This document shows positions 11,435 to 60,203 of a DNA stretch of 64,000 bases, one piece after another; the stretch's first letter is position 1; the number at the start of each line of letters is the position of its first letter. The notes under the pieces are model-generated. The model did no database searches, was not told the DNA's origin, and saw only the letters and a list, made by a program, of their open reading frames with translations. Source of the stretch: Gemmatimonadetes bacterium 2013_60CM_65_52 (GTDB lineage Bacteria; Gemmatimonadota; Gemmatimonadetes; Gemmatimonadales; Gemmatimonadaceae). Location of the stretch: positions 575,406 to 639,405 of the forward strand of contig NGFI01000002.1 in assembly GCA_002215645.1 (NCBI GenBank), given 5' to 3'. A program made the position numbers and the translations under genes.

Positions 11435-11560
11435 GGCAGAAAGAGGCAAACAGCCGGGGATAAACCACAGAGGTCACAGAGGCCACAGAGGCCACAGAGA
11501 AAACACCACGTCTCTGTTGTTCTCTGTGACCTCTGTGCTCTCTGTGGTTAATTGGCCGGC
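11435..11560. repeat. CACAGAGG-type inverted repeat element, copy A
   Basis: The element begins with GGCAGAAAGAGGCAAACAGCC, then an arm of iterated ACCACAGAGGTCACAGAGGC units (11464-11500), a short AT-richer centre, and the complementary arm ending CTCTCTGTGGTTAATTGGCC (11521-11556). The arms can form a long hairpin. The same flanks occur in copy B about 201-214 bases downstream, so A and B are a tandem duplication. Apart from these elements I see nothing else coding in 11330-11788. Confidence 0.85.
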
Positions 11561-11587
11561 GCTTTCAGACCAGGAGCCGTCGCCCGA

Positions 11588-11626
11588 TCAGCCGCCGCTG
11601 CGGTACGTGCAGCCATGCTCCTGGGC
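11588..11626 (-). pseudogene. 3' remnant of a duplicated DsrE-like gene
   Basis: Read on the minus strand this stretch encodes QEHGCTYRSGG followed by TGA. It matches the last 11 codons (QERGCTYCSGG) of the intact gene at 11789-12475. The rest of the gene is absent. The remnant lies between repeat copies A and B at the same spacing as the intact 3' end has to copy B, so it arose by tandem duplication of the gene's end together with the repeat. Confidence 0.75.
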
Positions 11627-11648
11627 GGGATGGACATGATTTCTCGAG

Positions 11649-11762
11649 GGCAGAAAGAGGCAAACAGCCTGGGATAAACCACAGAGGTCACAGAGGCCAC
11701 AGAGAAAACACCACGTTTCTGGTGTTCTCTGTGACCTCTGTGCTCTCTGTGGTTAATTGGCC
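11649..11762. repeat. CACAGAGG-type inverted repeat element, copy B
   Basis: Second tandem copy, with the same lead-in GGCAGAAAGAGGCAAACAGCC, arm CACAGAGGTCACAGAGGCCACAGAG and returning arm CTCTGTGCTCTCTGTGGTTAATTGGCC. It has one fewer CACAGAGGC unit than copy A. It ends about 27 bases from the stop codon of the DsrE-like gene and could act as that gene's transcription terminator or RNA 3' end; this is inference. Confidence 0.85.
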
Positions 11763-48159: not shown

Positions 48160-48354
48160 TTGGCCAACAAACCACAGAGACCACAAACTACAGAAGGACA
48201 CCGCAAATGAACCACAGAGGACACAGAGGACACAGAGGACTGGCTTTCTGAGAAAGTCTCTGTGACCTCTGTGCTCTCTGTGGTCATTTCAAGCAGTTGC
48301 TGTTCTTCCGAGCTGAAGAACTTGCGGATACGGCGCCGCTAGCGTGCTCGCATT
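48160..48354 (-). repeat. CACAGAGG-family long repeat, copy C (about 195 bases)
   Basis: Read on the minus strand it starts TGCGAGCACGCTAGCGGC, then GTATCCGCAAGTTCTTCAGC, GAAGAACAGCAACTGCTTGA, then two CACAGAGG/CCTCTGTG arms and ends GTGGTCTCTGTGGTTTGTTGG. It matches copy E at 60002-60203 nearly base for base in the opposite orientation. It occupies most of the gap between the M20 peptidase and acnA. No transposase is encoded. Confidence 0.85.
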
Positions 48355-52321: not shown

Positions 52322-52450
52322 ACCACAGAGGCCACAGAGAACACAGAGGGGGCCTCTTTTTCCTTTTTCTGAGATCGCAGTTCTCTGTGTGCTCTGTGTT
52401 CTCTGTGGTTCATTTAGCTCTGTGGTTCAGGTAGCTCTGCGGTTCATTCG
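52322..52450. repeat. CACAGAGG-type inverted repeat element, copy F
   Basis: The left arm ACCACAGAGGCCACAGAGAA (52322-52348) and the right arm ending TGCTCTGTGTTCTCTGTGGT (52383-52409) are complementary with few mismatches and enclose a pyrimidine-rich centre. Two further partial units (GCTCTGTGGTTCA and GCTCTGCGGTTCA) follow. It lies in the otherwise empty region 52082-52547. Confidence 0.8.
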
Positions 52451-52547
52451 CACCGGCGAACCCAACTGCTTCTCTGCCAGCAAGTTGGGTTGCGCGCGGT
52501 GACGTGGACACGCATCTTGCCGCGTCATCGAAATCCCTGGAGAAACA

Positions 52548-53120
52548 ATGCCTCACCGGATGCGGATCCTCACCGTCGTCGCCGCGGCCACGCTCCTTGC
52601 CGCAGGGGGACGCCTGTCGGCCCAGCAGCCAGCAGGTCCCGCCGTACCCGAGGTCGGCGCGATGGCGCCCGAATTCGCCGTCGTCGGTGCGACGCGGTAT
52701 GGAGTCCTCCGCGACTCGGTTCGCCTCTCGGACTATCGGGGCAAGACCGTCGTCCTCGCATTCTTCTTCAAGGCGCGGACAAAGGGCTGAACGATTCAAA
52801 TGGAGGCGTACCGTGATCAGTACGCCAAGCTCTTCAACAACGGACGCAACGTCGTGGTCCTCGGTGTCAGCGTGGATCCCGATACGACGCTGGCCGCATG
52901 GGCCCGGGATCAGCAGACGCCGATACTGTATGGCAGCGATCCGGACCAGCACGTCGGCAAGCTGTATGGTTCAGTCAGCGGCACGTCGGACAACCGTTCG
53001 CTCTTCGTCATCGATCCATCGGGACGCATCGTGAAACGCATGCTGCCGTTCAACGTCCTCGCGCAAACGGCGTACGACGAGCTCGAGGCGGCTGTGCGGC
53101 AGACCTTGCCGGCGAAGTGA
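52548..53120 (+). CDS. Selenocysteine-containing exported peroxiredoxin-like redoxin (in-frame TGA)
   Basis: Read through the TGA at 52788-52790 this is one 190-residue protein. It has a signal peptide (VVAAATLLAAGGRLSAQ) and a redoxin domain: APEFAVVGATRYG, SDYRGKTVVLAFFFKARTKG, residue 81 = TGA, TIQMEAYRDQYAKLF, VVVLGVSVDPDTTLAAWA, and RSLFVIDPSGRIVK. Residue 81 is exactly where homologues have the peroxidatic Cys (KG-C-TIQM). Both halves are in the same frame with unbroken family similarity, and a hairpin follows the TGA. No other Cys exists in the protein. The alternative is a nonsense mutation or base error. Confidence 0.78.
52805..52826 (+). promoter_or_regulatory. Candidate bacterial SECIS hairpin
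   Basis: GGCGTAC (52805-52811) pairs perfectly with GTACGCC (52820-52826) around an 8-base loop CGTGATCA that contains G residues. The loop begins about 21 bases after the TGA codon, within the distance at which bacterial SelB-binding hairpins act. It is inside the coding sequence, as expected for bacteria. Not tested by folding software. Confidence 0.6.
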
Positions 53121-53151
53121 CCCGACTCGGCCCACCCTCGCAGCATTTCGT

Positions 53152-54543: not shown

Positions 54544-55482
54544 ATGACCAGCGCACCGTTTCGCGTCGGAATCATTCAGGATTCCGCATCGCCCGACGCC
54601 AAAGCCAATCTCGACGCCTCCGTCGCGCGCGTTCGCGAAGCGGCTGCGCGCGGCGCGCAAGTCATCTGTCTCAAGGAGCTCTTCAACGCGCCGTATTTCT
54701 GCAAGTCGCAGAAGTACGAGCGCTTCGACATGGCGGAGCCGATCCCCGGTCCCACCACCGCCGTCATGCAGAAGCTCGCCGCAGAGCTCGGCGTCGTACT
54801 CATCGCCCCCATCTTCGAACGCCAGGCTGCGGGCGTCTATCGCAACTCGGCGGCAATCATCGATGCCGACGGATCGCTGCTCGGGGTGTATCGGAAGATG
54901 CACATTCCGGACGATCCGCTCTTCAACGAGAAATACTACTTCGTCCCGGGAGACGCCGCCCACGACGACCGCATCGACGCCATCGGTGAGATCGCCAAGC
55001 AGGCCAGCGGCTTCCGCGTCTGGAACACGCGCTTCGCAAAGATCGGTGTGCTGATCTGCTGGGATCAGTGGTACCCGGAGGCGGCGCGCATCACGAGCCT
55101 TCTCGGGGCCGACATTCTCTTCTATCCCACGGCCATCGGCTGGCATCCCGCGGAAAAGGACGAATTCGGCGCCGCGCAGGTGGATGCGTGGCGCACGATT
55201 CAGCGTTCGCACGCCATCGCGAACGGTGTGTTCGTCGCGTCGCCTAATCGCGTTGGTCATGAAGACGACGAGCCGGGCACGCGCGGCATCGAGTTCTTTG
55301 GCAACTCATTCATCGCGGATCCCTTCGGGCGCGTTCTGGCCACCGCGGGCACGGAGGAGGCGATTCTCATTGCGGATTGCGATCCGCGCTTGATCGACGA
55401 GACGCGCCGTAACTGGCCCTTCCTGCGCGATCGCCGCATCGACGCCTATGCGCCGATTCTCTCGCGCTACCTCGGCGCCTGA
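54544..55482 (+). CDS. aguB: N-carbamoylputrescine amidase
   Basis: A 312-residue nitrilase-family enzyme. The catalytic triad is visible: Glu in CLKELFNAPYFC, Lys in YRKMHIPDDPLFNEKYYF and Cys in GVLICWDQWYPEAARI. It hydrolyses N-carbamoylputrescine to putrescine, CO2 and ammonia. Directly downstream is aguA, which makes its substrate, so the pair forms the agmatine route to putrescine. The start ATG has no ribosome binding site but a promoter-like box just before it. Confidence 0.93.
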   Translation: MTSAPFRVGIIQDSASPDAKANLDASVARVREAAARGAQVICLKELFNAPYFCKSQKYERFDMAEPIPGPTTAVMQKLAAELGVVLIAPIFERQAAGVYRNSAAIIDADGSLLGVYRKMHIPDDPLFNEKYYFVPGDAAHDDRIDAIGEIAKQASGFRVWNTRFAKIGVLICWDQWYPEAARITSLLGADILFYPTAIGWHPAEKDEFGAAQVDAWRTIQRSHAIANGVFVASPNRVGHEDDEPGTRGIEFFGNSFIADPFGRVLATAGTEEAILIADCDPRLIDETRRNWPFLRDRRIDAYAPILSRYLGA

Positions 55483-55507
55483 GCAGCTCGTCGGGACGAG
55501 CCCAAGC

Positions 55508-56545
55508 ATGACCACATATTCGTTCCCCGCCGAGTGGGCGCCACATGCCGCCACGTGGATCGCGTGGCCGCATCACGAGCCGGACTGGCCCGGAAAGCTG
55601 GCCGCCATCTCGTGGGTGTACGCCGAGATCGCGCGGGTGCTCGCGCTGCACGAGCGCGTCGAGATTCTGTGTCACGACGAGTCGGTCAAGGCCGCGGCGC
55701 GGGAACACCTCGCTGCACACGGTGTCGTCGAGAATGCTCGATTGCACGTCGTCCCGACCGACCGCGTGTGGCTGCGTGACTCCGCGCCCACGTTCGTGCG
55801 TGACGAGCATGGCTCCGTCGTGCTGATGAACTGGATGTTCAACGCGTGGGCGAAATATCCGAACTTCGCGCTCGACGCCGAGGTCGGTCGCGCGATCGAG
55901 CACATCACCGGACTCGGGCGCGTGGAGCCCTTGCGTCCGTATGGCGGCGGACGGCTCGTGCTCGAGGGAGGCGGCATCGAGACCGACGGGGAAGGAACTC
56001 TTCTCGTGACGGAAGAGTGGCTTCTCTCTCACGAGCAGGTGCGCAACCCCGGGCTCGATCGCGAGGCGTACGAGCGTGCGTTCCGCGAGTGGCTGGGCAT
56101 TCGCCACACCATCTGGCTGGGTGAGGGCTGCGTCGGCGACGACACGCATGGCCATGTGGACGACGTCGCCCGTTTCGCCGGACCCGGTCGCGTTCTACTC
56201 GCCTACGAAGAAGATCCCGCCGACGACGAAAATCATCGCCGCAGCGAGGACAACCTGCGCCGGCTCGAGCTCGCGGGCGCTGACGCCGGCGCCCTGGAAG
56301 TCGTGAAGCTTCCGTATCCGCGCCCCGTGATGATGAACGGCGAGCGATTGCCCGCGAGCTACGCCAACTTCTACATCGCGAACGGAGCCGTGCTCGTCCC
56401 CACCTTCAACGACCCGAACGATCGTGTCGCGCTCAACACCATTGCGTCGGTGTTCCCGGGGCGCAGCGTGACCGGCATCCACGCCGTGGATCTCGTCTGG
56501 GGTTACGGAACACTGCACTGCCTCGCACAGCAGCAGCCGTCGTGA
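55508..56545 (+). CDS. aguA: Agmatine deiminase
   Basis: A 345-residue guanidino-modifying enzyme converting agmatine to N-carbamoylputrescine. Motifs are WLRDSAPTFV, RLVLEGGGIETDGEGTLL, GDDTHGHVDD and the catalytic Cys in GYGTLHCLAQQQP (usual form GxxHCxTQQxP; here Ala replaces Thr). ATG at 55508 begins TTYSFPAEWAPHAATWIAWP, the expected start. It is 25 bases after aguB and its stop overlaps the DCC gene (GTGA). No arginine decarboxylase is in the window. Confidence 0.94.
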   Translation: MTTYSFPAEWAPHAATWIAWPHHEPDWPGKLAAISWVYAEIARVLALHERVEILCHDESVKAAAREHLAAHGVVENARLHVVPTDRVWLRDSAPTFVRDEHGSVVLMNWMFNAWAKYPNFALDAEVGRAIEHITGLGRVEPLRPYGGGRLVLEGGGIETDGEGTLLVTEEWLLSHEQVRNPGLDREAYERAFREWLGIRHTIWLGEGCVGDDTHGHVDDVARFAGPGRVLLAYEEDPADDENHRRSEDNLRRLELAGADAGALEVVKLPYPRPVMMNGERLPASYANFYIANGAVLVPTFNDPNDRVALNTIASVFPGRSVTGIHAVDLVWGYGTLHCLAQQQPS

Positions 56546-59925: not shown

Positions 59926-60001
59926 CGGCGCGCGGTATCTGCAAGTTTTTCGGCTTGGAAGAACAGGAACTGCTTGAATTGACCAGAGAGAGCACAGAGG
60001 T
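59909..60001 (+). repeat. CACAGAGG-family repeat, truncated copy D (93-bp tandem unit)
   Basis: CACTGCGAGCACACTAGCGG starts both this unit and the next (60002), a direct tandem duplication of 93 bases with a handful of mismatches. The unit includes the last codons and the TAG stop of the trans-sulfuration gene. It ends in CACAGAGGT. Confidence 0.85.
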
Positions 60002-60203
60002 CACTGCGAGCACACTAGCGGCGCGCCGTATCCGCAAGTTCTTCAGCTTGGAAGAACAGGAACTGCTTGAATTGACCACAGAGAGCACAGAGGTCACAGA
60101 CGCTTTCTAGGGAATGCCAAGCCTCTGTGTCCTCTGTGGTTCATATGCGGTGTTCTTCTTTAGTTTGTGGTCTCTGCAGTTTGTGGTCTCTGTGGTTTGT
60201 TGG
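60002..60203 (+). repeat. CACAGAGG-family long repeat, copy E (about 200 bases)
   Basis: It repeats unit D, then continues GACCACAGAGAGCACAGAGG, a central gap, the arm GCCTCTGTGTCCTCTGTGGT and the tail GTGGTCTCTGTGGTTTGTTGG. It is the counterpart of copy C (48160-48354) in inverted orientation, 11.8 kb away. It ends 20 bases before queC, so the queC promoter lies at its edge. With D it fills the gap 59926-60223. Confidence 0.85.

Follow-up and report, generated by a model that had tools for sequence, protein, structure and literature searches.

What does the in-frame TGA at positions 52788-52790 of this DNA encode—selenocysteine (Sec) at the catalytic position of an exported peroxiredoxin, or nothing, in a redoxin gene broken by mutation or sequencing error? 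The window, by which we mean the whole 64-kb stretch of DNA analysed, corresponds to contig positions 575406-639405 of a 4.2 Mb assembly that is 97% complete.

A redoxin gene with one internal TGA

The gene and its product have the following features.

52539..52542, plus strand: GGAG, a likely ribosome-binding site 5 nt upstream of the ATG (from sequence)
52548, plus strand: ATG start (from sequence)
52548..53123, plus strand: reading frame for the predicted exported Sec-peroxiredoxin, which has 191 residues with the TGA at 52788 read as Sec (from sequence, Pfam and orthologues)
52548..52622, plus strand: predicted signal peptide, residues 1-25, with cleavage after A25 (LSA-QQ) as read by eye
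52779..52781, plus strand: Thr78, the Thr of the TxxU motif, conserved as Thr in 80 of the 83 Sec forms
52788-52790, plus strand: in-frame TGA, read as selenocysteine 81, the peroxidatic residue (from codon counts in 118 gene copies)
52995..52997, plus strand: Arg150, invariant, aligning to the peroxiredoxin active-site arginine
53121-53123, plus strand: terminal stop TGA, in the same frame as the ATG at 52548

In the read-through translation, the internal TGA sits in T-K-G-U, the peroxidatic position of an AhpC/TSA protein. The Pfam family AhpC-TSA (PF00578) bridges it (residues 36-163, E 3e-25), and Redoxin also matches the read-through protein (E 1e-14). Frame and translation agree with the original prediction of one signal-peptide-plus-redoxin protein split only by TGA and containing no Cys (the count is zero); its length, given there as 190 residues, is 191 once residue 81 is included. 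Residues 1-25 resemble a Sec/SPI signal peptide, with the cleavage motif A25-Q26 at least 90% conserved among 52 homologues, suggesting that the peroxiredoxin is exported.

Two other features of the window were observed. A dispersed intergenic repeat, CCACAGAGG-N-CACAGAG, with tandem and inverted arms, gave 21 matches against 0.11 expected and lies at window positions 11465-11752, 48212-48283, 52323-52408, and 59983-60139, one copy being directly upstream of the peroxiredoxin gene. At 54544-56545, a carbon-nitrogen hydrolase gene is followed by an overlapping PAD_porph (agmatine deiminase-like) gene, likely an agmatine-to-putrescine pair.

A pseudogene, a miscalled TGC or TGT, or two short open reading frames adjacent by chance would each account for a single in-frame TGA that breaks an otherwise ordinary redoxin gene, and such TGAs are not rare locally: a read-through scan of the window found 14 in-frame TGA pairs with at least 60 codons on both sides and high GC3, which by eye look like antisense or frame noise. 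The distribution of this particular TGA argues strongly against these readings. Of the 395 Gemmatimonadota genomes, 313 contain a homologue (E up to 1e-20), and exactly one internal TGA is present in nearly all strong matches among those listed, down to 40-50% identity. Across the 118 gene copies in which codon 81 was read, it is TGA in 84, TGC in 32, and TGT in 2, with no other codon; wherever a homologue lacks the TGA, a Cys stands opposite residue 81, bearing out the claim that the TGA occupies the peroxidatic Cys position. The TGA copies are spread over many genera and families with frames intact on both sides, sister genomes keep the TGA without accumulating further disruptions, and the RNA downstream of it is conserved at the codon level (next section). 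This cross-species conservation refutes a pseudogene or sequencing error, to which we assign a negligible probability.

Of the 84 Sec forms, 77 lack any Cys beyond U, and in 29 of the 34 Cys forms residue 81 is the sole Cys. Some genomes carry tandem copies of the peroxiredoxin: a Sec copy beside a Cys copy in L052, L073, G307, G168, G258, G026, and G091 (genus g8) and in G182, two Cys copies in G374, and two Sec copies in G263.

The downstream hairpin and the selenocysteine genes

One further feature lies just past the TGA.

52805..52826, plus strand: bSECIS hairpin, a 7-bp stem closing the 8-nt loop CGUGAUCA, whose second base is G

The stem is perfect in the window (GGCGTAC / CGTGATCA / GTACGCC), as originally described. 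Its placement downstream of the TGA also held, but the distance given, about 21 bases, did not: the hairpin starts 14 nt past the TGA, and the earlier figure may stand for the 24 nt between the T of the TGA and the start of the loop. Folded as a single sequence (71 nt), the window's hairpin is not significant alone (z = -1.36, with 20 of 200 shuffles as good). We therefore used covariation and codon constraint, and its significance derives from conservation across 83 Sec forms, not from the single-sequence fold.

The hairpin is kept in these 83 sequences, with all seven pairs in 63 and six pairs in the remaining 20, where the missing pair is mostly the outermost; Cys forms retain anywhere from 2 to 7 pairs. 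In TGA forms, GCGUAC-CGUGAUCA-GUACGC is almost letter-invariant, and the GCGTACCGTGATCAGTACGC stretch is likewise nearly letter-invariant in the 83 Sec forms, with flanks that vary. The constraint reaches synonymous positions, counting codons from the TGA: GCG at codon +6 (100% of Sec forms vs 43% elsewhere in the same genes), CGT at +8 (95% vs 11%), and GAT at +9 (99% vs 31%), where Cys forms use CGC and GAC, their codon use at the element being back at background. Outside the hairpin, codon +3 (window 52797-52799) is the Gln codon CAA in 81% of Sec forms vs 24% elsewhere in the genes, possibly because recoding places an additional sequence requirement here. The outer stem pair, which joins the third bases of codons +5 and +12 and occurs as G-C, C-G, or U-A, covaries: both bases changed together 24 times where 9.7 were expected, a count that none of 500 shuffles reached, and slid controls fail. 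The published bSECIS model specifies a stem of 4-16 bp, a loop of 3-9 nt with G in its first two positions, a spacing of 16-37 nt, and a minimum free energy of at most -7.5 (PMC13188914). The hairpin fits this model: its stem has 7 bp, its loop has 8 nt with G as the second base and begins 24 nt downstream of the U of the UGA, and its consensus energy is -10.55 kcal/mol.

The search for sel genes proposed with the original prediction found all four in the window's genome. These are selA (542 bits), selB (348.7 bits with its frame neighbours; cut-off 242), selD (367 bits), and selC, the tRNA-Sec with a TCA (UCA) anticodon, which begins 4 nt after the selD stop (L009 9835-9929). An in-frame TGA also interrupts selD itself (L009 8850-8852); it falls in CAG-U-AAK, the usual Sec/Cys site of that protein. 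No Fdh-alpha match in the window's genome exceeded the cut-off, and none had an internal stop, as a Sec-type formate dehydrogenase would. The selenouridine synthase gene mnmH/ybbB was absent from all 60 relatives searched; selD is therefore not kept for selenouridine. Taken together, the alternation of TGA with Cys codons, the sel genes, and the conserved hairpin support the selenoprotein reading, and Sec is very likely inserted at codon 81. Every computational check proposed with the original prediction favoured it, and none of the observations it named as refuting turned up. As we propose it, SelB with Sec-tRNA(UCA) would recognise the hairpin 14 nt past UGA-81 and insert Sec, and the terminal UGA, which has no hairpin element, would still terminate.

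Alternation of TGA and cysteine codons across the phylum

Using E 1e-60 as the threshold for presence, selA was found in 282 of 395 genomes. We searched again for copies of the peroxiredoxin in every one of the 70 genomes that had a homologue but no selA, and in 80 selA-bearing genomes whose matches were mostly missing from the first list. TGA and Cys forms were tallied from the best hits (E up to 1e-34), with selB as a second marker. A TGA copy was present in 79 of the 82 genomes with selA or selB, and only a Cys form in the other 3; of the 49 genomes lacking both markers, 45 had only Cys forms and the 4 with TGA are all 80-85% complete assemblies (Fisher p ~1e-26, treating genomes as independent though they are related). 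G019, for example, is without selA and has the Cys form. The coupling is not absolute: G006, G080, and G374 have selA and a peroxiredoxin only in the Cys form, and their machinery is probably kept by other selenoproteins.

These data bear on whether UGA might be read as another amino acid, by general suppression or a changed code. The frame would be equally open under a code in which TGA is Trp, but the gene itself ends in TGA, the sense codons at position 81 are always Cys, and the Sec machinery is complete, Cys codons having taken over where it was lost. This conservation rejects any decoding of the UGA as a different amino acid, a reading we consider about as implausible as a broken gene.

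On a tree of 116 gene copies built with residue 81 masked, the Sec/Cys label requires 13 changes, at least 4 of them on starred branches. A phylogeny-corrected pairing had only 4 independent starred pairs; the machinery changed in step with the label in about 3 of them and hardly ever against it, a number too small for significance. The Cys forms of the g11 trio, G006, G095, and G036 are nested within Sec clades with varying support, which implies replacement of Sec by Cys in those lineages; an outgroup-like paralogue clade is itself Cys. There were probably several such changes in the phylum, tracking the loss of selA and selB, and in lineages without the machinery UGA would have been swapped for UGC or UGU and the RNA element left to decay. 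Sec-to-Cys changes have been called rare and primarily confined to FdhA and SelD in a 2026 review (PMC13188914), and a 2006 survey counted five Cys-to-Sec events and zero Sec-to-Cys for peroxiredoxins. The Gemmatimonadota family departs from this pattern of rarity.

Active site, proposed electron supply, and known relatives

U/C81 and R150 are invariant among 52 homologues and T78 is at least 90% conserved, giving a TxxU motif and catalytic Arg (T78, U81, R150) that we read from the alignment as the probable peroxidase triad. The structure model has a pLDDT of 90.5, low only at the N-terminus and extreme C-terminus, and a Foldseek search matched Bcp4 (3hjp, E 9e-15). By sequence and modelled fold, the predicted protein is of the Bcp/PrxQ–AhpE-like AhpC/TSA type. 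One position is unusual: the Pro of PxxxTxxC is Phe74 in the window protein, and Pro is present in 20 of 83 Sec forms (which mostly have Phe or Tyr) vs every one of the 34 Cys forms. With Sec at position 81, this Pro may be less necessary. It is highly conserved in described Sec-peroxiredoxins (PMC13188914), and its absence therefore makes this family a divergent variant among them.

Loss of this Pro in most Sec forms could also suggest that Sec is inserted into a protein whose main role is that of a periplasmic thiol/selenenylsulfide oxidoreductase, chaperone reductant, or sensor, and not a peroxidase, the more so as a thiol transporter and thioredoxin are neighbours in some lineages and the peroxidase role of this protein is itself predicted. 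We regard this as improbable, given that the peroxidase active-site Thr and Arg are kept, no second Cys lies near U as it does in UxxC oxidoreductases, and the top structural matches are peroxidases. As a peroxidase, the protein would be exported to the periplasm by the Sec pathway, where the U81 selenolate, held by T78 and R150, would reduce peroxides and be converted to a selenenic acid. There is no other Cys in the peroxiredoxin, and therefore no internal bond could form and a partner reductant would be required.

A candidate for this partner emerged from gene neighbourhoods. Among 69 loci with enough downstream sequence, in which neighbour genes were sought by tblastn, 32—all TGA forms—have two genes convergent with the peroxiredoxin gene, one for a CcdA/DsbD_TM protein and one for an exported WCxxC redoxin (Pfam DsbD_TM and Redoxin/Thioredoxin). 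In the window's own genus the pair is not adjacent to the peroxiredoxin gene; homologous CcdA-thioredoxin pairs are present in the window's genome but unlinked (L127, L128), such that an exported peroxiredoxin, an exported thioredoxin, and a DsbD-family transporter, with export judged from sequence, all occur there. The most likely donor would be an exported WCxxC thioredoxin-like protein fed by a CcdA/DsbD-like transporter, with electrons passing from cytoplasmic thioredoxin to CcdA, exported thioredoxin, the peroxiredoxin selenolate, and finally peroxide. The reductant might instead be a low-molecular-weight thiol. Small thiols can serve one-Cys or one-Sec peroxiredoxins that lack a resolving Cys; this protein has none, and the CcdA-thioredoxin pair is unlinked in its genus. 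The recurrence of the convergent pair suggests a functional tie, and we consider a small thiol unlikely, though a stronger contender than a non-peroxidase role.

We are highly confident in the overall explanation that the locus encodes an exported one-Sec peroxiredoxin, with Sec81 directed by SelB and the hairpin, reduction by exported thioredoxin and CcdA, and a swap to Cys upon loss of the machinery. More tentatively, and at slightly less than an even chance, the phylum may keep its Sec machinery mainly for this exported peroxidase (and SelD), as a selenium-dependent defence against peroxides in the periplasm, served by a dedicated electron relay across the membrane. On this reading the defence would probably be old in the phylum and have been lost several times with selA/selB, the losses having been fixed by UGA-to-Cys change and element decay. 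The alternation of Sec and Cys with selA/selB loss serves as a natural experiment in which the reasons for retaining Sec can be studied, and the locus offers a testable periplasmic selenium-dependent redox path in a phylum of mostly environmental bacteria.

Several known systems can be compared. The PrxU protein of Eubacterium acidaminophilum is reportedly a Sec-containing peroxiredoxin, said to have been described by Sohling in 2001. In line with the original prediction, Sec-peroxiredoxins with TxxU are a documented kind (PMC1088965, PMC13188914). The Gemmatimonadota protein shares with them (COG1225/PF00578; PrxU and the Sargasso Sea set, PMC1088965) the AhpC/TSA fold, a peroxidatic Sec, and a bSECIS directly downstream, and differs in having a signal peptide, usually no Cys, and mostly Phe or Tyr in place of Pro. 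It is not a PrxU equivalog (NCBIfam NF040737, 47.7 bits vs a cut-off of 270). Since no NCBIfam model reached its cut-off, standard annotation probably truncates or misses it in hundreds of genomes. Peroxiredoxin selenoproteins appeared in earlier surveys as scattered and mainly in anaerobes, whereas this one is conserved phylum-wide. No paper on Gemmatimonadota selenoproteins was found in the open-access literature.

The closest solved relatives in sequence and fold are Cys peroxiredoxins of the Bcp/PrxQ and AhpE types (2ywn, 3hjp, and Mycobacterium Rv2238c). These are non-exported Cys enzymes, whereas the Gemmatimonadota enzyme is exported, by prediction, and has Sec instead of Cys. The peroxiredoxin-like thiol:disulfide oxidoreductase selenoproteins (UxxC/UxxU) share the PF00578 fold with Sec; unlike them, the protein described here has TxxU, Thr at U+1, and no Cys. 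For electron supply, the nearest parallel is ScsB-TlpA-PRX, a cell-envelope peroxide-reduction pathway reportedly described by Cho et al. in 2012. In both systems a membrane transporter of the DsbD type is combined with a thioredoxin of the envelope and an exported peroxiredoxin, here as predicted from the genes; the Gemmatimonadota version differs in its short CcdA-like transporter, its convergent genes instead of one operon, and its Sec peroxidase. Set against these systems, what is new is a predicted exported, Cys-less Sec-peroxiredoxin conserved phylum-wide, in which Sec is lost along with its machinery and has probably given way to Cys repeatedly.
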